A stretch of 64,000 bases of DNA from Allobosea sp. 117 (lineage in GTDB: Bacteria > Pseudomonadota > Alphaproteobacteria > Rhizobiales > Xanthobacteraceae), in contig NZ_JNLC01000012.1 of the NCBI RefSeq assembly GCF_000702305.1, positions 62,001 through 126,000 on the forward strand. The letters run 5' to 3'. The position numbers and the translations under genes were made by a program. The notes beneath the pieces were generated by a model. That model was not told where the DNA came from. It did no database searches and was given only the letters and a program-made list of their open reading frames with translations. Below, one piece after another: positions 8,369 through 28,271 of the stretch. The stretch's first letter is position 1. Every line of letters begins with the position of its first letter.

Positions 8369-9734
8369 ACCATCGATCTTCGCGCGGCTCATCGCGCTCA
8401 TCTCGGTCGTGCTCGCGGTCGGCGCCGCCCTGCTGACGACCGCCGCCTGGTATTACGCGCGCGAGGCCGCGAACGAGGCCTATGATCGGCTGCTGGTCGG
8501 CGCTGTGCTGCAGATGGCCGAAGCGGTTCAGGTCGAAGGCGGGACGCTGCATGTGGAACTGCCGGTATCGGCCTTCGAGCTGCTGGCGCTCTCCGAGCGC
8601 GACAGCATCTACTACCGGATCGTCGACACCGCGGGGCGCACGCTAACCGGCTATGGCGACCTGCCGGTGCCGGAGGCCAGCGCCGATGTGCTGGAACGTC
8701 CGGCGATCGAGGATGGCCGCTATCGCGGCGTCGCCGTGCGCATCGCCAAGACCTCGCGCAATTTCGCCGACCCGGCCGTGCAGGGCCGCGTCGACGTCGT
8801 CGTCGGGCAGACCACCGAGGCGCGCAAGCAGCTCGCGCGCGAGCTCACCCTGCGCGCGGTCGGCCTGATCGCGGTGATGAGCGGGCTCGCGCTCGGCGGC
8901 GCGGTGTTCGCCATCCGCTACGCCCTGCGCCCCATCGAGCGGGTCGGCAACGCCCTGCGCCGGCGCGACCCCCACGACATGACGCCGGTGACCATCGACA
9001 CGCCGCGCGAGCTGCGGCCCTTCGTGGCGGCGACCAACGAGTTCATCGCGCGGCTGAAGAGCCGCGTCGATCTCATGCAGCAATTCGTCGCCGACGCCGC
9101 CCACCAGATCCGCACCCCGCTGACCGCGCTGAAGTCCCAGTCCGACCTGCTGTCGCGCTATCCGATCGACGGGCAGGCCCGCGTGCATCTCGGGCGCGTC
9201 GAGCAGCGGGTCGACCAGCTCTCGCGCCTTGCCGGGCAGCTTCTGAGCCATGCCATGGTCGGCCACCGCGCCGGCGTGGTGCGGTTCGAGCCGGTCGACC
9301 TCGTCGAGATCGTCCGCCGCGCGATGCGCGAGGCGGTGCCGGACACGCTGGAGCGTGACATCATCACGACGCTTGAGGCGCCGCGCGGATCGCTGGAGAT
9401 CATGGGCGACGCGATCAGCCTGAAGGAGGCGGTCAAGAACGTCATCGACAATGCCGTCCGCCACGGCGCCCCGACGCGCATCACCATCCGCCTGCGCGAA
9501 ATACCTGGCGGGGCCGAGATCGAGGTGGAGGATGACGGGCCGGGCATTCCCGAGACGGACTGGCCGCGTGTCGTCACCCGCTTCGGCGCCCCTTCGGAGC
9601 GGGGGTCCGGCCTCGGGCTCGCCATAGCGGTCGAGGTGCTCGCCATGCATGGCGGCGCGCTCGGCTTCGCCGCGCGGGGCGCGGACGGCTTCGCGGTGAT
9701 CATGACGATCCGGCACGACGGAGACGAGGCATGA
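8355..9734 (+). CDS. tctE: sensor histidine kinase TctE
   Basis: 459-residue membrane kinase partnering TctD. The first hydrophobic segment (about residues 10-32) and second (about 170-190) frame a periplasmic sensor region of roughly 135 residues typical of TctE. A HAMP-like stretch follows, then the H-box with H250 in AAHQIRTPL, the N-box NVIDNAVRHG, and G-boxes EDDGPGIP and GSGLGLAI. It starts inside tctD (14-base overlap) and its stop overlaps the next start as ATGA, so kinase, regulator and binding protein are made from one message. Confidence 0.95.
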   Translation: MARREPSIFARLIALISVVLAVGAALLTTAAWYYAREAANEAYDRLLVGAVLQMAEAVQVEGGTLHVELPVSAFELLALSERDSIYYRIVDTAGRTLTGYGDLPVPEASADVLERPAIEDGRYRGVAVRIAKTSRNFADPAVQGRVDVVVGQTTEARKQLARELTLRAVGLIAVMSGLALGGAVFAIRYALRPIERVGNALRRRDPHDMTPVTIDTPRELRPFVAATNEFIARLKSRVDLMQQFVADAAHQIRTPLTALKSQSDLLSRYPIDGQARVHLGRVEQRVDQLSRLAGQLLSHAMVGHRAGVVRFEPVDLVEIVRRAMREAVPDTLERDIITTLEAPRGSLEIMGDAISLKEAVKNVIDNAVRHGAPTRITIRLREIPGGAEIEVEDDGPGIPETDWPRVVTRFGAPSERGSGLGLAIAVEVLAMHGGALGFAARGADGFAVIMTIRHDGDEA

Positions 9735-16760: not shown

Positions 16761-17690
16761 TCATTTGGGCGCGAGCGCCCGCACCGCGAGGGCAGTGGCG
16801 GCGGCGCGGTTCTCGACGCCGATCTTCGAATAGATCTGTTCGAGATGCTTGTTCACCGTGCGCGGCGACAGGCCGAGAATCTCGCCGATGTCGCGGTTGG
16901 CCTTGCCGCGGGCGAGCCAGGTAAGCACCTCCGCCTCGCGCAGCGTCAGGTTGAGCCGCGCCTTGAGTATCTGCTCGGGCGGCAGTCCCTCGTCCTCGAC
17001 GATGCGCAGGAGGAGCTCGTCCGGGCCGATCTGCCCGACATAGGAAAGCTTGAGGCGGCGCGCCGATCCTTCGAGCGGCACGTCGATCGAATCCGGCTCG
17101 GCGCTGGCTTCGCCCCGCCGCCCATCGAGCCAGCGCCGCACCGGCTCGGGCAGGAGAAAGCTGTCGCCCGGCGGCGAGACGGTGATGGCGGTGAGCAGCG
17201 CGGTCGCCTGCGGCGTACTCCAGAGCACCCGGCCGGCGCGCGTCGCCGACAACAGGAAGCGGCCCGACGCGTCGAGCGCCGCGCGGGCGGAATGGGTATG
17301 GCGGGCATTGGCGAGGTGCACGCGCATACGGGCGATAAGCTCATCGGGCGCGATCGGCTTGGTCACATAATCGACGCCGCCGGCCTCCAGCCCCTTCACG
17401 ATCTGCTCGGTCTCCGAAAGACCGGTCATGAAGATCACCGGCACATGCGCCACCGCCTTGTTGCGCTTGAGCTGGCGGCAGGTCTCGAAGCCGTCCATGC
17501 CGGGCATCACCGCGTCCATCAGGATGACGTCGGGGGTGATGCGCTCGACCAGCGCCAGCGCGTTGGCGCCCTCCACCGCCACCAGCACGGTGGCGCCGGC
17601 GGCTTCCAGCGCATCGGTGAGCAGGCTCAGCGTTTCGGGGGAATCGTCCACCACCAGGACGATGTCGCGGCGCTCCATGCTATGCATCAT
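16761..17690 (-). CDS. LuxR-family response regulator of the urea/amide cluster
   Basis: 309-residue regulator. The receiver (about 8-125) has DD acidic pair, phosphoacceptor D59 in DVILMDAVMPG and Lys in DYVTKPI. After a middle region of about 110 residues, the C-terminal HTH (about 240-300) reads LTLREAEVLTWLARGKANRD and SPRTVNKHLEQIYSKIGV, a typical LuxR/NarL helix-turn-helix. It overlaps the end of the hybrid kinase gene by 11 bases, so both come from one message. Divergent urtABCDE-fmdAB is its probable target; the palindrome at 21423-21440 is a candidate site. Confidence 0.92.
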   Translation of the reverse strand: MMHSMERRDIVLVVDDSPETLSLLTDALEAAGATVLVAVEGANALALVERITPDVILMDAVMPGMDGFETCRQLKRNKAVAHVPVIFMTGLSETEQIVKGLEAGGVDYVTKPIAPDELIARMRVHLANARHTHSARAALDASGRFLLSATRAGRVLWSTPQATALLTAITVSPPGDSFLLPEPVRRWLDGRRGEASAEPDSIDVPLEGSARRLKLSYVGQIGPDELLLRIVEDEGLPPEQILKARLNLTLREAEVLTWLARGKANRDIGEILGLSPRTVNKHLEQIYSKIGVENRAAATALAVRALAPK

Positions 17691-20600
17691 TGCTGCGCAG
17701 CGCCCCCAGAACCGCCATGTACTGCTTGAAGTCGAAGGTTTCCATCAGGTCGCGCATGTGGTTGACGAACGCCTCGTAGTCCGGGGAATTTGCCTCGATC
17801 TCGCTCAGCTTCGCCTGGATGCCGCGCACATAGCCGATCTCGCCCAGCTTCATCAGGTCGTCGATATGACTGCCCGACGGCGCGTGGATCGCCTGGACGG
17901 GCATCGGCGCCGGCTGGCCCGGCACGATGTCCCCCTCGCCGATCCATTCGAGGTCGAGCAGGCTCTGCATCTTCTCCATCAGTCCGCGCAGATGCACCGG
18001 CTTGATGATCTGGTCGTCGTGATGGCTGGCATTGGCCGGCTCGCGGATCTCGCCGGCATTGGCCGAGATCATGATGATGCGCAGCTTCGAGAAGCCCTCG
18101 TCGCGCAGTTGCCGCGCCACCTCCCAGCCGTTCAGCCCCGGCATGGAGATGTCGAGCAGCAGAAGCTCCGGCTCCCACTGGCGTGTCATGTCGAGCGCGG
18201 CGACGCCGTCCGCCGCCGAAAGGACGGTGAAGCCGAGCGGCGCCAAAAGCTCGTGCATGAGGTCGCGATGCGCCTCGTCGTCATCCGCCACCAGCACGGT
18301 GCGCCGCGGGCCCGTATAGCCGACGATGCGCCGGTGCTGGATCGGCCCGGTACGGGTCGGGCTGCTGACCTCCGAGAGCATCAGCCGGACGCGGAAGGTG
18401 CTGCCCGCGCCCGGCGTCGAGGTGAGCGCGATCTCCCCGCCCATGATCTCGGTCAAAAGCTTGGTGATGGTGAGGCCGAGGCCGATGCCGCTGGTCGAAT
18501 AGGTGCCGGCTCGCTCCCCCCGCTCGAAGGGCTCGAAGATGCGCTTGTGGTCGGCCGCCGGAATGCCGATGCCGGTGTCCTCCACCTCGAATTCGGCGAC
18601 CTGGTTGCGATAGGCGACGCGCAGCCCGACGCGTCCCTCATGGGTGAACTTGATAGCGTTGGACAGGAGGTTGATGAGGATCTGCCGTAGCCGCTTCTCG
18701 TCGGTGTAGACCACCGCCGGCAGCCGTTCGGGGCGGACATAGACGAAGTCGATGCCCTTGGCGGTCGCCTGCAGGCGGAACATGTCGACGAGCTGGTCGA
18801 GGAACTCGCCGATGCGCACCTCGTCGCGGGTGAGGTGCAGCCGCCCGGCCTCGATCTTGGAGATGTCGAGCAGGCCGTCGATGAGGCCGGACAGATGCTC
18901 GGCCGAGCGGCGGACCACGCGGATGGCGTCGCGCCGGTGCGGCGGGATCGAAATGTCGCGCTCGAGCAACTGTGCATAGCCGAGAATGGCATTGAGCGGC
19001 GTGCGCAGCTCGTGGCTGATGCCGACGACATAGCGGCTCTTGGCGAGGTTGGCAGCCTCCGCCACCTCCTTCGCCTTCTGCAGCTTGGCGTCGGTGCGCT
19101 TGTGCGCCTCGATCTCGCGCATCAGCAGCGCGGTCTGGCGCTGGCTCTCCTCCTGCGCGACGCGGCGGCTCTCCTGCGCCAGCACGAACAGCCAGGCGGC
19201 GACGCCGGCGATGATCAACAGGATGAAGTAGAGCGTGAAAAGCACCTGGCCGATGGCTTCGCGCCCGACAGCGGGCGCGAAGGTGGCCTGGAAATAGATG
19301 ACGGCGAGTATCCCGCCGATCACCGTCGCGAGCAGCGACAGCACGCCGAGATAGTGGCCGAGCCGCGAATTGAGGCGCACCACCATCCAGCTCGGCAGCG
19401 TCGCCTGCATCACCGCGAGGATCTGGTCGGGGAAGCGCGCATCCTCCTTGCACCGGTCGTGGCAGCGCGCGTCGAGCGAGCAGCACAGCGAGCAGATCGG
19501 CCCGGCATAGACCGGGCAATGCGCCATGTCCTCCGGCTCGAACTTGTGCTCGCAGATGCAGCACTTGATGGTGAGGCGCGAGTCCCAGTTCTTGGTGGTG
19601 CGCCGGGCGATGTAGTAGCGGCCCTGCGTCGCGAAGGCGATTGCCGCGGCACTCACGAAGGAAGCAACGAGCGCGAGGAACGGCGCGAAGGCCTGCAGCG
19701 CCGGCCCCAGGAAGCCGGTGAAGGCGATCGTGCCGATCAGCGTGCCGACGATGACCGCGCCGACCCCAACCGGGTTGATGTCGTAGAGATGCGCCCGCTT
19801 GAACTCGATGCCCGGCGGGCTCCAGCCCATCGGCTTGTTGACCACCAGATCGGCGACCAGCGCGGCCACCCACGCCACCGCGACGATGGCGTAGAGCCCG
19901 AGGATCTGCTCCAGCACCTTGTAGATGCCGAGCGCCATCAGCATCAGCGCGATGGTGACGTTGAACACCAGCCACACCACCCGCCCCGGATGGCTGTGCG
20001 TCAGCCGCGAGAAGAAGTTCGACCAGGCGATCGACCCCGCATAGGAGTTGGTCACGTTGATCTTGAGCTGGGCGAGGATGACGAACACGCCGGTGAAGGC
20101 GAGCGCCACCTCCGGCGAGAACACCGTGCGGAACGCCGCCAGATACATCTGTGTCGGCTCGGCGGCATGGACGAACGGCACGCCCTGGGTGAGCGCGAAA
20201 TAGGCGAGGAAGGAACCGGCGAGCATCTTGATGCCGCCGGGGATGATCCAGCCCGGCCCGGCCGAGAGCAGCGCCACCCACCACAGCGCGTTGCGGGTCG
20301 CCTCGCTGCGGCCCGGCGCCCGGCGCGGCAGGAAGCGCAGGAAGTCCACCTGCTCGCCGATCTGCGCCACCAGCGCGAAGATCACGGTGCAGGCCGCACC
20401 GAACATGAGCCAGTCGAACGAACCGTCCAACGCGCCGAGGCGGCCGGTATAGGAGGTCCATCCGGCGAAGGAATCGCCGTGATAGACGAGGATGAAGCCG
20501 AACGGGATGAGGTTCAGCAGCAGCCAGAACGGCTGGGTCCAGAGCTGGAAGCGGCTGATGAAGGTGATGCCGTGCGTCACCAGCGGGATCACCACCAGCG

Positions 20601-21069
20601 CGCTGATGAAATAGCCCACCATCAGCGGCACGCCGAAGCACATCTCCAGCGCCAGCGCCATGATCGCCGCCTCGATGGCGAAGAACAGATAGGTGAAGGA
20701 GGCGTAGATCAGCGAAGTGACGGTGGAGCCGATATAGCCGAAGCCGGCGCCGCGGGTGAGCAGGTCGATGTCGACGCCGAACTTCGCGGCGTAGTAGCTG
20801 ATCGGCAGCCCGGCCGCGAAGATGACGACGCACACCGCCAGAATGGCGGCGACCGCGTTTGGAAAGCCGTAGGCGAGCGTGATGGCGCCGCCGATCGCCT
20901 CCAGCGCGAGGAAGGACACGGCGCCGAGCGCGGTGTTGGCGACGCGCAGCGCCGACCAGCGCCGCGCGCTCTTCGCGGTGAAGCGCAGCGCGTAGTCCTC
21001 GAGTGTCTCGTTGACCACCCACTGATTGTACTGGCGGCGAACACGGACAATCTTCTGTTCCGCAGCCAT
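17680..21069 (-). CDS. NCS1-transporter-domain hybrid sensor histidine kinase
   Basis: 1129 residues in one chain. Residues about 15-490 form a complete NCS1 (nucleobase:cation symporter-1) type transporter with about 12 hydrophobic segments. Residues about 500-535 hold a Cys-rich block (CCICEH, then HCPVYAGPICSLCC, then ARCHDRC). Two more membrane segments follow (about 555-625), a short coiled coil, HisKA with H686 in GISHELRTPLNAIL, HATPase (NLLSNAIKF, EDTGIGIP, GIGLGLTI), a receiver with D973 in LLLLDISMPG, and about 70 further residues. I chose ATG 21069. It is probably a transporter-like receptor for urea, amides or related compounds, judging by the divergent urt-fmd operon. Whether it also transports is unknown. 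Confidence 0.92.
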   Translation of the reverse strand: MAAEQKIVRVRRQYNQWVVNETLEDYALRFTAKSARRWSALRVANTALGAVSFLALEAIGGAITLAYGFPNAVAAILAVCVVIFAAGLPISYYAAKFGVDIDLLTRGAGFGYIGSTVTSLIYASFTYLFFAIEAAIMALALEMCFGVPLMVGYFISALVVIPLVTHGITFISRFQLWTQPFWLLLNLIPFGFILVYHGDSFAGWTSYTGRLGALDGSFDWLMFGAACTVIFALVAQIGEQVDFLRFLPRRAPGRSEATRNALWWVALLSAGPGWIIPGGIKMLAGSFLAYFALTQGVPFVHAAEPTQMYLAAFRTVFSPEVALAFTGVFVILAQLKINVTNSYAGSIAWSNFFSRLTHSHPGRVVWLVFNVTIALMLMALGIYKVLEQILGLYAIVAVAWVAALVADLVVNKPMGWSPPGIEFKRAHLYDINPVGVGAVIVGTLIGTIAFTGFLGPALQAFAPFLALVASFVSAAAIAFATQGRYYIARRTTKNWDSRLTIKCCICEHKFEPEDMAHCPVYAGPICSLCCSLDARCHDRCKEDARFPDQILAVMQATLPSWMVVRLNSRLGHYLGVLSLLATVIGGILAVIYFQATFAPAVGREAIGQVLFTLYFILLIIAGVAAWLFVLAQESRRVAQEESQRQTALLMREIEAHKRTDAKLQKAKEVAEAANLAKSRYVVGISHELRTPLNAILGYAQLLERDISIPPHRRDAIRVVRRSAEHLSGLIDGLLDISKIEAGRLHLTRDEVRIGEFLDQLVDMFRLQATAKGIDFVYVRPERLPAVVYTDEKRLRQILINLLSNAIKFTHEGRVGLRVAYRNQVAEFEVEDTGIGIPAADHKRIFEPFERGERAGTYSTSGIGLGLTITKLLTEIMGGEIALTSTPGAGSTFRVRLMLSEVSSPTRTGPIQHRRIVGYTGPRRTVLVADDDEAHRDLMHELLAPLGFTVLSAADGVAALDMTRQWEPELLLLDISMPGLNGWEVARQLRDEGFSKLRIIMISANAGEIREPANASHHDDQIIKPVHLRGLMEKMQSLLDLEWIGEGDIVPGQPAPMPVQAIHAPSGSHIDDLMKLGEIGYVRGIQAKLSEIEANSPDYEAFVNHMRDLMETFDFKQYMAVLGALRSNDA

Positions 21070-21532
21070 GACATCTCGCCCCGTCGCCCCGACGCCCGAT
21101 GTCCTCCCTGGCTGCACGCGTTCCCTGCCCATTTTTTTGATCACCCCGTGGCGCGAGCGTTTCGCCGCCGGCACCGCGCCGAACATAGCGGACCGACCAT
21201 GCACGAGACGTTCCACCACGCGGTGTGGCAAATATGCGCAATGGCGACAGTCCAGACTGGCCGACGGTCGCGAAGAATTCCGTCTACCGGCCGGACTTTC
21301 CGCACTCGCTGCAACATTCGCCTTGGATTTACCGAGCGCGCGCGCGCGAAAAACATGCGTGCACGCGCGATCCCGCACGACATCCTTGTCCGCAACTGTG
21401 TGACCGCGGGCCGAAAACCCCTATACGTCAATTGACGTATTGCTGCAGCGCGGCAATCCCGCCCACGATCCTCGCAATACAAGCCAAAATGAAAAGCTTG
21501 TTGGGCCACGTCTAACCCGTGGAGGGGATCGC
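21070..21532. other. divergent promoter region of sensor and urtA
   Basis: 463 bases without a supported gene between the hybrid kinase start and urtA. It contains an alternating GC run (about 21335-21348), the perfect palindrome at 21423-21440 and, overlapping it, the inverted repeat ATTGC/GCAAT (21438-21456). I see no convincing sigma-54 promoter. Confidence 0.6.
21423..21440. promoter_or_regulatory. 18-bp perfect palindrome upstream of urtA
   Basis: ATACGTCAATTGACGTAT is a perfect palindrome centred about 102 bases before the urtA ATG. Dyad sites of this length are typical of dimeric LuxR/NarL-type regulators, one of which is encoded at 16761-17690. Its location in the only promoter region shared by the sensor-regulator and uptake operons makes it the best operator candidate. 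Confidence 0.65.
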
Positions 21533-22807
21533 ATGTCTTCAAATAACGACAATCATGACAAGTTTTCCGGCACACGTCGCCGGCTTCTACAGGGGATGGC
21601 GGCGCTGCCTCTGCTGTCGACGACTTCGCTGTTCTCGGGATCAGCCTTCGCCCAGGCGCCCGCGACCTCGGCCGTGAATACGACGGGGCTTGCGGTTACT
21701 GACACCGAAGTCACCGTCGGCATTCTCCATTCCGTCACCGGCACCATGGCGATCTCGGAGACCGGCTCGGTGCAGGCCGAGAAGCTCGCCATCGAGCAGA
21801 TCAACGCCTCCGGCGGCGTGCTCGGCCGCAAGATCAAGTTCATTCAGGAGGACGGCGCCTCCGACTGGCCGACCTTCGCCGAGAAGGCCAAGAAGCTGCT
21901 GGTCAACGACAAGGTTGCGGCGATCATGGGCTGCTGGACCTCGGCCTCGCGCAAGGCGGTGCTGCCGGTGGTCGAGCAGTACAACGGCATGCTCTACTAC
22001 CCGACCTTCTACGAGGGTCTCGAGCAGTCGAAGAACGTCATCTACACCGGCCAGGAGGCGACCCAGCAGATCCTCGCCGGCCTCGACTGGGTGCAGAAGG
22101 AGAAGGGCGGCAAGACCTTCTACCTCATCGGCTCGGACTACATCTGGCCGCGCACCTCGATGAAGATCGCCCGCAAGCACATCGAGGGGCACCTGAAGGA
22201 CTCTTCGGTGGTGGGCGAGGAATATTTCCCGCTCGGCCACACCCAGTTCAACTCGGTGATCAACAAGATCAAGCTGAAGAAGCCGGACGTGATCTACGCC
22301 GCAGTGGTCGGTGGCTCGAACGTCGCCTTCTACAAGCAGCTCAAGGCCGCCGGCATCGACCTCTCCAAGCAGACGCTGCTCACCATCTCGGTGACCGAGG
22401 ACGAGATCGACGGCATCGGCGGCGAGAACATCGCCGGCGCCTATAGCTGCATGAAGTACTTCCAGTCGCTCGACAACCCGAACAACAAGGAGTTCGTCGC
22501 CGCCTTCAAGAAGATGTGGGGCGAGAAGACGGTGATCGGCGACGTGACGCAGGCCGCCTATCTGGGCCCGTGGCTGTGGAAGATGACGGTGGAGAAGGCC
22601 GGCTCCTTCGACATCGACAAGATCGCCGAAGCCTCGGCCGGCATCGAGTTCACCAAGGCGCCGGAAGGCTACGTCAAGATCCACCCGAACCACCACCTGT
22701 GGTCCAAGACCCGCGTCGGCCAGGCGCAGCTCGACGGCCAGTTCAAGGTGGTGTTCGAGACCGCCAATCTCATCGAGCCCGATCCGTTCCCCAAGGGCTA
22801 CCAGTGA
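21533..22807 (+). CDS. urtA: urea/short-chain amide ABC transporter substrate-binding protein UrtA (FmdD-like)
   Basis: 424-residue periplasmic receptor of the branched-chain-amino-acid-type ABC family. A Tat-like signal (TRRRLLQGMAALPLLSTTSL) precedes the mature sequence, which starts with the characteristic VTVGILHSVTGTMAISE. Further UrtA-type motifs are GCWTSASRKAVLPVVE and YYPTFYEGLEQSKNVIYTGQ. It would bind urea or formamide/acetamide. Start ATG 21533 has GGAGGGG upstream. It leads urtABCDE-fmdAB. Because formamidase rather than urease follows, the amide-uptake role known for FmdD of Methylophilus is as likely as urea. Confidence 0.95.
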   Translation: MSSNNDNHDKFSGTRRRLLQGMAALPLLSTTSLFSGSAFAQAPATSAVNTTGLAVTDTEVTVGILHSVTGTMAISETGSVQAEKLAIEQINASGGVLGRKIKFIQEDGASDWPTFAEKAKKLLVNDKVAAIMGCWTSASRKAVLPVVEQYNGMLYYPTFYEGLEQSKNVIYTGQEATQQILAGLDWVQKEKGGKTFYLIGSDYIWPRTSMKIARKHIEGHLKDSSVVGEEYFPLGHTQFNSVINKIKLKKPDVIYAAVVGGSNVAFYKQLKAAGIDLSKQTLLTISVTEDEIDGIGGENIAGAYSCMKYFQSLDNPNNKEFVAAFKKMWGEKTVIGDVTQAAYLGPWLWKMTVEKAGSFDIDKIAEASAGIEFTKAPEGYVKIHPNHHLWSKTRVGQAQLDGQFKVVFETANLIEPDPFPKGYQ

Positions 22808-22852: not shown

Positions 22853-22902
22853 TCCTCGTGTCGTGAAGACCGCGCGGGCACGCGCATGTCGGGGGATTCG
22901 TG

Positions 22903-23829
22903 ATGTTTTCTGATTATTCGCTGGCCGAACTCGGCTCGATCTTCGTGATGCAGGGCTTCGCCGGGCTCATCCTGTTTTCCGTCTTCGTGCTCATGGCGCT
23001 CGGCCTCGCCATCATCTTCGGACAGATGGGCGTCATCAACATGGCGCATGGCGAGTTCATGATCCTCGGCGCCTATGTCACCTATTTCACGTCACAGTTC
23101 TTCCTGAACTACCTGCCGGGCCTGTTCGGCATCTACTTCTTCATCGCGATGATCCTCGCCTTCATCGCCGCCGGCGCGCTCGGCATGGCGGTGGAATGGC
23201 TGATGATCCGAAGGCTCTACAAGCGCCCCCTCGACACGCTGCTCGCCACCTGGGGCCTCAGCCTCATCCTCCAGCAGATCTACCGCTCGGTGTTTGGCCC
23301 GCGCGAGGTCGGCGTCGAGCTGCCGGGCTGGATGATGGGCTCGCTGCCCGTAACCGATTCCATCGAGATGCAGATCAACGGCCTGTTCGTCATGGGCCTG
23401 ACCATCTGCATCACCATCGCGGTGGCGCTGCTGATGTACCGCTCCAACTGGGGCATCCAGGTGCGCGCCGTCGTGCAGAACCGCATCATGGCGGGCGCGG
23501 TGGGCATCAACACCGAGAAGGTGGACCGCTACACCTTCGGCCTCGGCTGCGGCATCGCCGGCGTCGCCGGCTCCGCCTTCACCATGATCGGCTCGACCGG
23601 GCCGACCTCCGGCCAGCTCTACATCGTCGACACCTTCCTGGTCGTCGTGTTCGGCGGCGCGCAGAGCCTGCTCGGCACCATCGCCTCCGCCTTCACCATC
23701 TCGCAGGCCCAGTCGACCCTGGAGTTCTTCCTCTCCGGCTCGATGGCCAAGGTCCTCACGCTGCTCGGGGTGGTCATCATCCTGATGCTGCGGCCCCAGG
23801 GCCTGTTCGTCATCAAGGTCCGGCGTTGA
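22903..23829 (+). CDS. urtB: urea/amide ABC transporter permease UrtB
   Basis: 308-residue inner-membrane permease of the LivH/UrtB family with about eight hydrophobic segments. The conserved region FGQMGVINMAHGEFMILGAY (residues about 39-58) is the LivH-type motif, and a later AGVAGSAFTMIGSTGPTSGQ matches the second conserved loop. It pairs with UrtC and contacts UrtD/UrtE. Start ATG 22903 (a GTG directly precedes it) has GGGGG upstream. It is 95 bases after urtA, the gap holding the hairpin, and 10 bases before urtC. Confidence 0.95.
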   Translation: MFSDYSLAELGSIFVMQGFAGLILFSVFVLMALGLAIIFGQMGVINMAHGEFMILGAYVTYFTSQFFLNYLPGLFGIYFFIAMILAFIAAGALGMAVEWLMIRRLYKRPLDTLLATWGLSLILQQIYRSVFGPREVGVELPGWMMGSLPVTDSIEMQINGLFVMGLTICITIAVALLMYRSNWGIQVRAVVQNRIMAGAVGINTEKVDRYTFGLGCGIAGVAGSAFTMIGSTGPTSGQLYIVDTFLVVVFGGAQSLLGTIASAFTISQAQSTLEFFLSGSMAKVLTLLGVVIILMLRPQGLFVIKVRR

Positions 23830-26548: not shown

Positions 26549-27787
26549 ATGCCTGAAACACTGATCTCGGTCGATCTGTCCAAGCCGGCCACGGAGAACG
26601 AGTACCTCCACAATCGCTGGCACCCCGACATCCCGATCGCCACCTGGGTGGAGCCGGGCGCCGACTTCATCGTCGAAACCGTCGACTGGACCGGCGGCGC
26701 CATCGCCAACAACGATTCCGCCGACGACATCCGCGACGTCGACCTCTCCACCGTGCACTATCTGTCCGGCCCGATCGGCGTGAAGGGCGCCGAGCCGGGC
26801 GATCTCCTGGTCGTCGACATCCTCGACGCCGGCACGCTCAAAGGTCACGAATGGGGCTTCAACGGCTTCTTCTCGAAGAAGAACGGCGGCGGCTTCCTGA
26901 CCGACCACTTCCCGCTCGCCCAGAAGTCGATCTGGCATTACGAGGGCATGTTCACCCGCTCGCGCCACGTGCCCGGCGTCGGCTTCGCCGGCCTCATCCA
27001 TCCCGGCCTGATCGGCACCCTGCCCTCGCAGAAGCTGCTCGACACCTGGAACGCCCGCGAGCAGGCGCTGATCGACACCAACCCGACCCGCGTGCCCCCG
27101 CTCGCCAACCCGCCCGCGCCGAAGACCGCGCATCTCGGCAAGCTCGGCAAGGGCACCGATGCCTATGCCAAGGTCGCCTCCGAGGGTGCCCGCACCGTGC
27201 CGCCGCGCGAGCACGGCGGCAATTGCGACATCAAGGACCTGTCGCGCGGCTCGAAGATCTACTTCCCGGTCTATGTGCCCGGCGCCGGCCTCTCCATGGG
27301 CGACATGCACTTCTCCCAGGGCGACGGCGAAATCACCTTCTGCGGCGCCATCGAGATGTTCGGCGCGTGGCTGCACATCAAGGTCTCGCTGATCAAGGAC
27401 GGCATGGCGCTGTACGGGATCAAGAACCCGATCTTCAAGCCCTCGCCGATCACCCCGAACTACAAGGACTACCTGATCTTCGAGGGCATCTCGGTCGACG
27501 AGAGCGGCACGCAGCATTACCTCGACGCCAACGTCGCCTATCGGCAGGCCTGCCTCAACGCCATCGAGTACCTGAAGAAGTTCGGCTATTCAGGCGCGCA
27601 GGCGCACTCGATCCTCGGCGTCGCGCCGGTGCAGGGCCATTTCTCGGGCGTGGTCGACATTCCGAACTCCTGCGCCACGCTGTGGCTGCCGACCGAGATC
27701 TTCGACTTCGACATCAAGCCGTCGGCGGCCGGCCCGACCAAGTTCATCGACGGCTCCATCGACATGCCGATTTCGCCGGACCTTTGA
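26549..27787 (+). CDS. fmdA: formamidase/acetamidase FmdA
   Basis: 412-residue cytoplasmic amidase of the FmdA_AmdA family, hydrolysing formamide (or acetamide) to ammonia and the acid. N-terminal landmarks are HNRWHPDIP and DWTGGAIANNDSADD; central ones are FTRSRHVPGVGFAGLIHPG and REHGGNCDIKDLSRGSKIYF; later ones are GDGEITFCGAIEM and FSGVVDIPNSCATLWLP. All match the family across its full length. ATG 26549 has AAGGGGAACGG upstream. It follows the ABC importer in the same direction, so imported amide is hydrolysed directly, giving ammonia for nitrogen assimilation and formate. Confidence 0.95.
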   Translation: MPETLISVDLSKPATENEYLHNRWHPDIPIATWVEPGADFIVETVDWTGGAIANNDSADDIRDVDLSTVHYLSGPIGVKGAEPGDLLVVDILDAGTLKGHEWGFNGFFSKKNGGGFLTDHFPLAQKSIWHYEGMFTRSRHVPGVGFAGLIHPGLIGTLPSQKLLDTWNAREQALIDTNPTRVPPLANPPAPKTAHLGKLGKGTDAYAKVASEGARTVPPREHGGNCDIKDLSRGSKIYFPVYVPGAGLSMGDMHFSQGDGEITFCGAIEMFGAWLHIKVSLIKDGMALYGIKNPIFKPSPITPNYKDYLIFEGISVDESGTQHYLDANVAYRQACLNAIEYLKKFGYSGAQAHSILGVAPVQGHFSGVVDIPNSCATLWLPTEIFDFDIKPSAAGPTKFIDGSIDMPISPDL

Positions 27788-27905: not shown

Positions 27906-28271
27906 ATGCCCGTCTACGAGTACATGTGCGAGAGCTGCGGCGACTTCACCGAACTGCGGCCGATGAGCGAGTACCAGGATCCGCAGCCCTGCCCGGATTG
28001 CGGCGCCGCCTCGCCCCGCGTGCTGCTGACCGCGCCGCATTTCACCGCGATGTCGCGCGAGCGCATGATCGCCCATTCGACCAATGAGAGCGCGCGCCAC
28101 GCGCCGATGAGCATCGACGGCTACAAGGAAAAGCAGGAGCGCGCCAAGCACGCCGCCGGATGCTCCTGCTGCTCCGGCATGCAGAGCCGGACCAAGAAGA
28201 ACCGCACGGCGACCTCGAAGAGTGGCGCCAAGAGCTTCCCCTCGGCACGCCCCTGGATGATCAGCCACTAG
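27906..28271 (+). CDS. fmdB: FmdB-family zinc-ribbon protein
   Basis: 121 residues. The N-terminus MPVYEYMCESCGDFTELRPM and CPDCGAASPRVLL give two CxxC knuckles (about residues 8-11 and 31-34) of the FmdB/CxxC_CxxC_SSSS zinc ribbon. The C-terminal half is basic and has CSCCSG. FmdB was named as a putative regulatory protein of the Methylophilus formamidase cluster; its molecular role is unclear. ATG 27906 is chosen because it starts the conserved motif. It is the last gene of the operon and convergent with ggt, 19 bases apart. Confidence 0.92.
   Translation: MPVYEYMCESCGDFTELRPMSEYQDPQPCPDCGAASPRVLLTAPHFTAMSRERMIAHSTNESARHAPMSIDGYKEKQERAKHAAGCSCCSGMQSRTKKNRTATSKSGAKSFPSARPWMISH

Follow-up and report, generated by a model that had tools for sequence, protein, structure and literature searches.

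A distant NCS1-type carrier domain fused to a hybrid histidine kinase: a predicted receptor for formamide- and urea-type compounds

What does a carrier domain do at the head of a histidine kinase? The question is raised by a 64,000-nucleotide stretch of the Allobosea sp. 117 genome (contig NZ_JNLC01000012.1, positions 62,001 to 126,000; hereafter the window), in which a hybrid sensor kinase with a carrier-like N-terminal half is encoded divergently from a urtABCDE-fmdAB operon. The reading that we favor, with a probability of roughly 0.7, is that this half is a permease-derived receptor for formamide/urea-type ligands, which would activate its own uptake and hydrolysis operon through a LuxR-type regulator. 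The kinase gene and the parts of its product, in window coordinates, are the following.

17680..21069, minus strand: hybrid sensor histidine kinase, 1129 amino acids (aa); open reading frame, start backed by a 20-member alignment
19600..21015, minus strand: NCS1/LeuT-fold carrier domain, residues 19-490; AlphaFold2 fold, profile homology, conservation in 124/124 sequences
19450..19563, minus strand: Cys block, residues 503-540, with eight invariant Cys; alignment and conservation
19042..19365, minus strand: helices 13-14 and signalling helix, residues 569-676; linker model with a predicted local distance difference test (pLDDT) of 89.5
18844..19041, minus strand: HisKA, residues 677-742, H686; Pfam and alignment
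18376..18705, minus strand: HATPase_c, residues 789-898; Pfam
17968..18297, minus strand: receiver domain (Response_reg), residues 925-1034, D973; Pfam and alignment

The gene is one uninterrupted reading frame of 1129 codons, running from an ATG at 21069 to 17680 on the minus strand, which confirms the single chain described in a first-pass annotation of the window. Its HisKA/HATPase and receiver assignments are likewise borne out by Pfam. Conservation was assessed on fusion sequences dereplicated at 97% (138 reduced to 128), excluding L112 (686 aa), L102 (960 aa), and the split forms L170 and L171. In the 124 full-length sequences, window included, the phospho-acceptor H686 and the receiver Asp D973 are invariant, as are N804, D831, G861, and G863, so that the H, N, D, and G boxes are intact throughout. 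The mean majority frequency in this set is 0.74 for the carrier domain, 0.75 for HisKA, 0.69 for HATPase, and 0.56 for the receiver.

Pfam assigns the N-terminal half to no carrier family. Residues 1-660 were scanned in 20 members (window included) without a carrier match in any of them, the best E-value of any family being 0.0027 (DUF6526), and PF02133 (NCS1, TC 2.A.39) has no match in the whole own genome and its cut-off is met by 0/20 fusion members. An AlphaFold2 model of these residues (pLDDT 74.9, predicted template modeling score 0.77) retrieved Mhp1 and CodB chains as its top five Foldseek matches in the PDB (2x79, E = 3.7e-7, TM-score 0.67 by target; 7qoa, TM-score 0.74), with other proteins of LeuT fold, such as NIS, Nramp, and the urea transporter DUR3, ranking lower. 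By hhalign, an alignment of fusions (20 rows, 16 of them used by the program) matched 11 NCS1 carriers, with no member common to both sides, at a probability of 99.3% over 434 columns (residues 19-492); we rely here on probability and coverage alone, since the E-value was computed for one template. A search of PDB sequences with the fusion profile gave no NCS1 match, and the plain carrier L173 likewise matched none. L173, which is 30% identical to the window domain, meets PF02133 and bridges the fusion domain and NCS1. Together, the fold match, the profile homology, and the bridging carriers that meet PF02133 place the domain, as modeled and aligned, in a separate and distant NCS1 branch that Pfam misses, rather than among canonical NCS1 carriers. 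The full-length NCS1 carrier of the first-pass annotation therefore stands as to fold and profile homology for residues 19-490, but not as a canonical member, considering the missing Pfam match and a replaced ion-site pair (see below). With Mhp1/CodB on top in Foldseek and the hhalign probability of 99.3%, the first 490 residues align to carriers and not to a non-carrier family, and the possibility that this is not a carrier fold was rejected. Membership of SLC5/SSS was also rejected, because NCS1 chains rank above SSS-type chains (NIS and DUR3) and there is no SSS-family Pfam match. Residues 490-660 have no convincing Pfam match in the 20 members, no search having been aimed at STAC; the model shows a Cys domain and two helices in this part.

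The regulator gene and the divergent operon of the window are arranged as follows.

16761..17690, minus strand: cognate response regulator, receiver (D59), an unassigned middle part, and LuxR/GerE helix-turn-helix; Pfam Response_reg and GerE
21423..21440, no strand: predicted operator ATACGTCAATTGACGTAT, a perfect palindrome of 18 bp located 93 bp before urtA begins (21533)
21533..22807, plus strand: urtA, substrate-binding protein; TIGR03407, 545.7 bits, start at MSSNN
22900..23829, plus strand: urtB; TIGR03409
23840..25006, plus strand: urtC; TIGR03408
25019..25780, plus strand: urtD; TIGR03411
25792..26481, plus strand: urtE; translation, with homologous genes at the same place across loci
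26549..27787, plus strand: fmdA, formamidase/acetamidase; PF03069, 599.8 bits (G000:C11:88570-89709)
27906..28271, plus strand: gene for an fmdB-like zinc-ribbon protein; translation, named by analogy with annotated FmdB beside FmdA

Both neighbors claimed by the first-pass annotation are thus present. The LuxR-type regulator gene overlaps the kinase gene by 11 nucleotides, which makes it likely that the two are co-transcribed, and in the divergent urtABCDE-fmdAB operon the NCBIfam cut-offs are met for urtA-D and PF03069 identifies fmdA. Elsewhere, the own genome has a separate urea-type urt operon and urease on another contig, a second urease on contig C17, and no fusion besides that of the window; the urea-type urt stretch contains no operator-like site above 8.0 bits. 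That there is only one fusion, and that the urea-type urt stretch lacks the operator, favors formamide-type amides over urea as the predicted ligand in this strain. Convergent with fmdB in the window is a gamma-glutamyltranspeptidase gene (PF01019, 28291-30120), which is not known to be connected with the system.

The family is widespread and is not restricted to one operon type. Matches were found in 21/289 genomes of the class (20 full fusions, own included, and one plain carrier), and 52/398 genomes of the phylum carry the fusion. Loci with this arrangement come, by record title, from Alpha-, Beta-, and Gammaproteobacteria, a recurrence far beyond chance; the contig scan used the best 80 of at least 576 relatives, a selection that favors window-like members. 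Besides the window, 124/127 dereplicated loci encode a relative of the LuxR-type regulator 3' of the kinase gene and on its strand, the exceptions being L108 (a 3-kb contig) and the split systems L170 and L171. Among the 113 dereplicated loci with at least 17 kb of sequence, 99 have urtA, 83 FmdA, and 18 relatives of urease, urea carboxylase, or allophanate hydrolase. Co-occurrence with urt and fmd genes, which the first-pass annotation had made a point to check, is therefore common, but other operon types occur too. The partners comprise amide-type urt with FmdA, urea-type urt with urease, urea carboxylase/allophanate hydrolase, CN-hydrolase amidase, and AmiS/UreI. Uptake systems and enzymes vary; the chemistry they have in common is H2N-C(=O)-R, that of urea and short-chain amides. 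Each locus was labeled amide or urea according to which query scored highest in the stretch fetched, except L155, which has ureABC and was for that reason assigned to urea manually. In a tree of the domain these labels change five times, versus at least 18 times in 500 shuffles, which means that context is inherited yet has switched repeatedly. In four of five genomes with two fusions (G513, G492, G428, and G636), one copy is beside urt-fmd and one beside urea genes.

The palindrome upstream of urtA recurs with its target genes. TACG-N8-CGTA is present in 61/96 kinase-urtA intergenic regions (92 amide-type, three urea-type, one mixed), where about one would be expected by dyad counting, and sites within five mismatches of the 18-mer are found in 65/96 of these regions versus 2/288 shuffles, which kept two-base blocks and not full dinucleotide statistics. 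The window palindrome itself has a chance expectation of 0.02 in the window and is the only zero-mismatch match in its own genome; two other places there have three mismatches, which is the control rate. An operator-like site with three mismatches (15.1 bits) lies in this genome at G000:C16:201733-201750 (L286:6734). The spacing of the half-sites resembles the 7-2-7 half-site arrangement of NarL-type regulators. A weight matrix was built from the 56 of the 96 regions with no more than four mismatches (54 amide-type and two urea-type). The operator accompanies the target and not the kinase (L028, a second site in L036/L037, L115, L185-L187, and L189). It precedes both allophanate hydrolase/urea carboxylase genes and a porin-urt operon in L036/L037, urtA at 2-3 kb from the kinase in L185-L187, and FmdA in L115, while it is more than 6 kb away in L189 and more than 4 kb from the regulator in L028. 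In 12 stand-alone carrier loci without a kinase the best score is 10.4 bits, versus 15.6-24.3 bits in three scanned plasmid-collection loci with one; the split systems (L170 and L171) have no operator-like site. The fusions in four loci (L032-L035) have no urt, fmd, or urease genes within the 19 kb fetched. Three of these loci (L032-L034) have an operator-like site immediately upstream of the kinase gene itself, which leaves room for self-regulation or for targets farther away.

Nine residues of the carrier domain (E57, E133, Q236, E239, Q240, K336, N338, N341, and Y343) are invariant in the 124 sequences. The Ser/Thr pair of the Na2 site on transmembrane helix (TM) 8, which we take to be Ser312/Thr313 in Mhp1, is not kept; profile alignments put K336/I337 in its place, with Lys in 124/124 sequences. 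The pair is not universal among PF02133 carriers (L203 is without it), and in CodB it is Thr278/Thr279 (PMC9379551, available part). E133 and N341 fall, in the profile alignment, at the positions of Gln121 and Asn318 of Mhp1, which in the text available of PMC4195764 hold the hydantoin ring. Residue 129, which falls in the substrate site and does not vary among amide-type members (Phe in 94/94, versus Leu in 11/23 urea-type members), is singled out on these grounds only, as a lead for ligand specificity and not as proof. A screen for residues separating amide- from urea-type receptors found no position changed in all five lineages; positions 402, 595, and 599 differ in four of them, and numerous positions in three.

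Between carrier and kinase lie the Cys-rich block and two further helices, both as the first-pass annotation had them. Each of the eight Cys at 503-540 is invariant in 124/124 sequences, and the helices after the block span residues 569-595 and 603 onwards, forming a hairpin in the linker model. The block is possibly a two-zinc (treble-clef/RING-like) domain. Foldseek of the linker model gave only weak resemblance to RING/PHD/LIM folds (best E 0.51) and nothing at E ≤ 0.001, and such recurrent weak zinc-finger matches prove nothing. A search of 190 genomes with the 61-aa Cys block returned 12 fusions and two chance-level places. In the linker model the second helix is unbroken across residues 603-689, past H686, which suggests a direct mechanical path from the membrane to the kinase.

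The carrier domain also exists on its own. With the domain as query, tblastn against plasmid records returned a Streptomyces protein named "allantoin permease" (43% identity, 96% coverage), and nine stand-alone carriers are 40-52% identical to the window domain. They end in the Cys block, which only the Methylovirgula carrier has in complete form; in the other eight it is degenerate. The PF02133 cut-off is met by one of five sister carriers scanned (L269, 37.7 bits). F129, E133, Q236, E239, Q240, K336, N338, N341, and Y343 are the same in 9/9 carriers compared. The sharpest difference between carriers and fusions is in TM1, where carriers have Asp56 in 9/9 (followed by Phe in eight and Gln in one) versus Leu/Cys/Met56-Glu57 in 127/127 aligned fusions. 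In a tree rooted on distant carriers, all nine carriers form a clade (support 0.998) separate from the 127 hybrid fusions (0.986). The two split fusions fall beside the carriers with a support of 0.58, which is weak enough to allow either direction, from carrier to receptor or the reverse. Fourteen carrier loci were examined, i.e. 14 of 18 plasmid-collection records at 50% identity or more (H63, H64, H65, and H70 were left out), several of which are near-identical Acinetobacter plasmids. Urease, FmdA, or aliphatic amidase is alongside in nine of the 14, and the tenth has the fusion. Some loci hold both proteins: in an Acinetobacter baumannii record the fusion and carrier genes point away from each other on either side of an operator-like site, and in Methylovirgula sp. 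HY1 the fusion, regulator, sister carrier, formamidase, and amidase are in one cluster together with a short UrtA-like fragment. As side observations, L269:7941-9548 encodes a member of the sister family, annotated "cytosine permease," directly 3' of ureG in a Klebsiella urease operon, whereas the more distant plain NCS1 carrier L173 (7949-12984) is in an apparent operon with genes for a CN_hydrolase, a UrtA/AmiC-like binding protein, and AmiR (ANTAR). In Mycobacterium smegmatis, the consecutively numbered msmeg_3402 ("cytosine permease") and msmeg_3403 (formamidase) both rise under nitrogen limitation according to the available part of PMC4617892; msmeg_3402 could be a member of the sister family.

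The mechanism that we propose on these predictions is as follows. A small amide, formamide-type in this strain and urea in other lineages, would occupy the central site, contacted by the equivalents of the Mhp1 ureide-binding residues (E133 for Gln121 and N341 for Asn318), while K336, at or next to the Na2 position, would make the cycle sodium-independent. Occupancy of the site may shift the rocking of the bundle versus the hash domain, and the Cys block and helix 14, unbroken to H686, would pass this shift to the kinase. Phosphate would then reach the LuxR-type regulator, with the fused receiver acting as a relay or a brake, and the phosphorylated regulator is predicted to dimerize on ATACGTCAATTGACGTAT and to switch urtABCDE-fmdAB on. 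Net transport by the receptor itself is probably weak or absent. In favor of this reading count the operon contexts of the fusion, its co-occurrence with FmdA or urea genes, the genomes with one copy in each context, the neighbors of the sister carriers and of L173, and the recurrent operator.

Several observations weigh against this reading. Four of the 14 carrier loci (L264 and L274-L276, two of them unannotated) have no informative neighbor, and five of the 113 long fusion loci (L032-L035 and L054) have no urt, fmd, or ure gene in the fetched stretch, L054 having an aliphatic-amidase-like CN_hydrolase gene divergent from the kinase. The register of K336 is uncertain by one residue because of a one-residue gap in TM8, and the aromatic sandwich of Mhp1 (Trp117/Trp220) is not kept, F129 standing in for Trp117 and the TM6 position being non-aromatic in a by-eye mapping. 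No histidine phosphotransfer step was identified for a phosphorelay. An operator at 14 bits or more near the target is found in 59/91 amide-type loci, a count that is partly circular because the matrix was built from the same, mostly amide-type regions, and in 11/23 urea-type, 0/5 unlabeled, and 0/1 mixed loci; it is unseen in most members of two urea-type groups and has diverged in Bradyrhizobium. Lastly, shared ancestry inflates the co-occurrence counts, which in themselves speak for the reading. Of 39 genomes with a strong FmdA (more than 550 bits), 38 carry the fusion (the exception is G387, and G465 has only the split form), and 12/12 of the fetched genomes, from 14 with a fusion and no listed strong FmdA, have urea genes nearby (G491 and G649 excluded). 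These were tallied by hand from 398 genomes for the fusion and 388 for FmdA, and the two samples may differ by some genomes.

The domain may be a receptor only or a transceptor. In the latter case it would be an active proton-coupled urea/amide permease, and the kinase would be driven by its transport cycle instead of by binding alone, a possibility also considered for CbrA. We regard this as possible but clearly the less probable course. The predicted site residues are common to the sister carriers except at positions 52, 53, 56, and 57, conservation of the carrier domain nearly equals that of HisKA (0.74 versus 0.75) and exceeds that of the HATPase and receiver, and K336 is at or near Na2 like K196 of CbrA, whose SLC5 domain transports histidine in the sections available of PMC13022988. 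On the other hand, it is the TM1 acidic residue that differs between all nine carriers and all 127 fusions, and a dedicated ATP-binding cassette importer stands beside the fusion in 99/113 long loci, so that transport by the receptor looks redundant. There is also a precedent in Ks-Amt5, reported to have lost transport (PMC5764959, part of the text). It is considerably less probable, and in our view doubtful, that the input is a cytoplasmic state (ammonium, pH, redox, or zinc via the Cys block) with the carrier kept as a conserved scaffold. Domains rich in Cys often bind metals, and the block has its eight invariant Cys; in addition, the M. methylotrophus cluster is repressed by ammonia (PMC10781810). 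However, polar residues at the predicted site do not vary among the 124 sequences, whereas a scaffold that binds nothing could drift, residue 129 varies with the type of operon, from Phe in 94/94 amide-type to Leu in 11/23 urea-type members, and the Cys block is also found in stand-alone carriers, degenerate in eight of nine.

The most improbable of the readings considered is a bulkier ligand, a ureide or a product of purine breakdown (allantoin, hydantoin, or ureidoglycolate), with urea or formamide handled downstream. It would suit the characterized NCS1 carriers, which bind nucleobases, hydantoin, or allantoin, and the annotation of some sister carriers as allantoin or cytosine permeases. 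Nevertheless, the substrates of the enzymes identified are urea, allophanate, formamide, or simple aliphatic amides, and no allantoinase or hydantoinase is present in the annotated stretches viewed, no search for them having been made elsewhere. A hydantoin or purine ligand was set aside as a lead for that reason, and the likely ligands, from genomic context, are urea and short-chain amides. The first-pass annotation had proposed a receptor for a nitrogen compound wired to urt-fmd; the context supports the wiring, but of the compounds it listed hydantoin and purines are less likely than urea and short-chain amides. A wider proposal, to which we give even odds, goes beyond the permease-derived receptor of the window. 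It holds that the NCS1 superfamily includes unrecognized urea/short-chain-amide permeases (annotated as cytosine or allantoin permeases or as hypothetical proteins), one branch of which would have been captured by a hybrid kinase as a dedicated receptor, exchanging Asp56 of TM1 and acquiring Glu57 in the process (if the carriers instead arose from the receptor, the change would have run the other way). This receptor would have moved about five times between formamide- and urea-type operons, partly with its palindromic operator, and would be the missing sensor of formamide/urea-inducible uptake in Proteobacteria.

Carrier-kinase fusions are already known with SLC5 (CbrA and CrbS) and Amt (Ks-Amt5) domains. 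What appears new here is the NCS1-type domain, for which no such fusion was found in the open-access literature, most subscription papers being outside the search; nor was a sensor for fmd/urt induction named there. One genome paper (PMC13296017), in the passages available, mentions a urt operon with a hybrid kinase and a LuxR-type regulator next to it and does not comment on the sensor domain. The nearest parallel is CrbS/CrbR (MxtR), which combines a carrier-type domain and a hybrid kinase having a C-terminal receiver with a LuxR-family regulator, and an inverted-repeat operator, found by comparative genomics, upstream of uptake/utilization genes (parts of PMC5715377 and PMC7918813). Yet CrbS has SLC5/SSS, STAC, and PAS domains and an acetate regulon, whereas the present fusion has an NCS1-type domain, a Cys block, and two helices. 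CbrA/CbrB of Pseudomonas is also a carrier-kinase fusion of LeuT-type fold with a Lys (K196) in the Na2 site, where lysine occupies Na2 and transport is proton-driven (PMC13022988, same sections), but it differs in its SLC5 domain, histidine as substrate, STAC and PAS linkers, a sigma54-dependent regulator, no fused receiver, and other targets. Ks-Amt5 likewise reuses a nitrogen-compound carrier domain as a receptor in a histidine kinase; its trimeric Amt fold, ammonium ligand, and reported loss of transport set it apart (PMC5764959, same part). Mhp1 and CodB share the fold and, by profile alignment, equivalents of two site residues (E133 and N341), but the fusion domain is a distant branch invisible to Pfam, has the Na2 Ser/Thr replaced, and is joined to a kinase. 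UhpC has an MFS fold, with UhpT as its sister carrier. In UhpC-UhpB a transporter-like sensor also feeds a histidine kinase (UhpC in the available text of PMC7096432), although the two are separate polypeptides responding to glucose-6-phosphate. The NCS1-type domain would thus join a short list of carriers serving as kinase inputs, and the analysis yields a concrete sensor, regulator, operator, and target set. The natural carrier/receptor sister pairs, some within one locus, are material for asking how a transporter becomes a receptor.

Two minor groups of loci complete the survey. In the split systems (L170:3701-10656 and L171:3169-10347), a carrier-kinase without receiver is accompanied by a separate REC-HisKA-HATPase protein, FmdA, and an FmdB-like gene; both also carry an AmiS/UreI gene (family confirmed for L170), and an OmpR-type regulator (likewise confirmed for L170) is encoded on the other strand. 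In annotated plasmid records the sensor is mostly named "ATP-binding protein," otherwise "response regulator" or ArcB-like, and once hybrid sensor kinase, names under which its sensory half is overlooked. Among Klebsiella, 342 records match the domain, at least two of them via a stand-alone carrier, and the importer is discussed as urea transport system UTS in a text that does not use the term "histidine kinase" (PMC13060141). On a Klebsiella variicola IncF plasmid (L265), urtABCDE and the gene for a CN_hydrolase formamidase diverge from a relative of the sensor (58% identical) that is annotated only as "ATP-binding protein," and an operator-like site is present at 8878.

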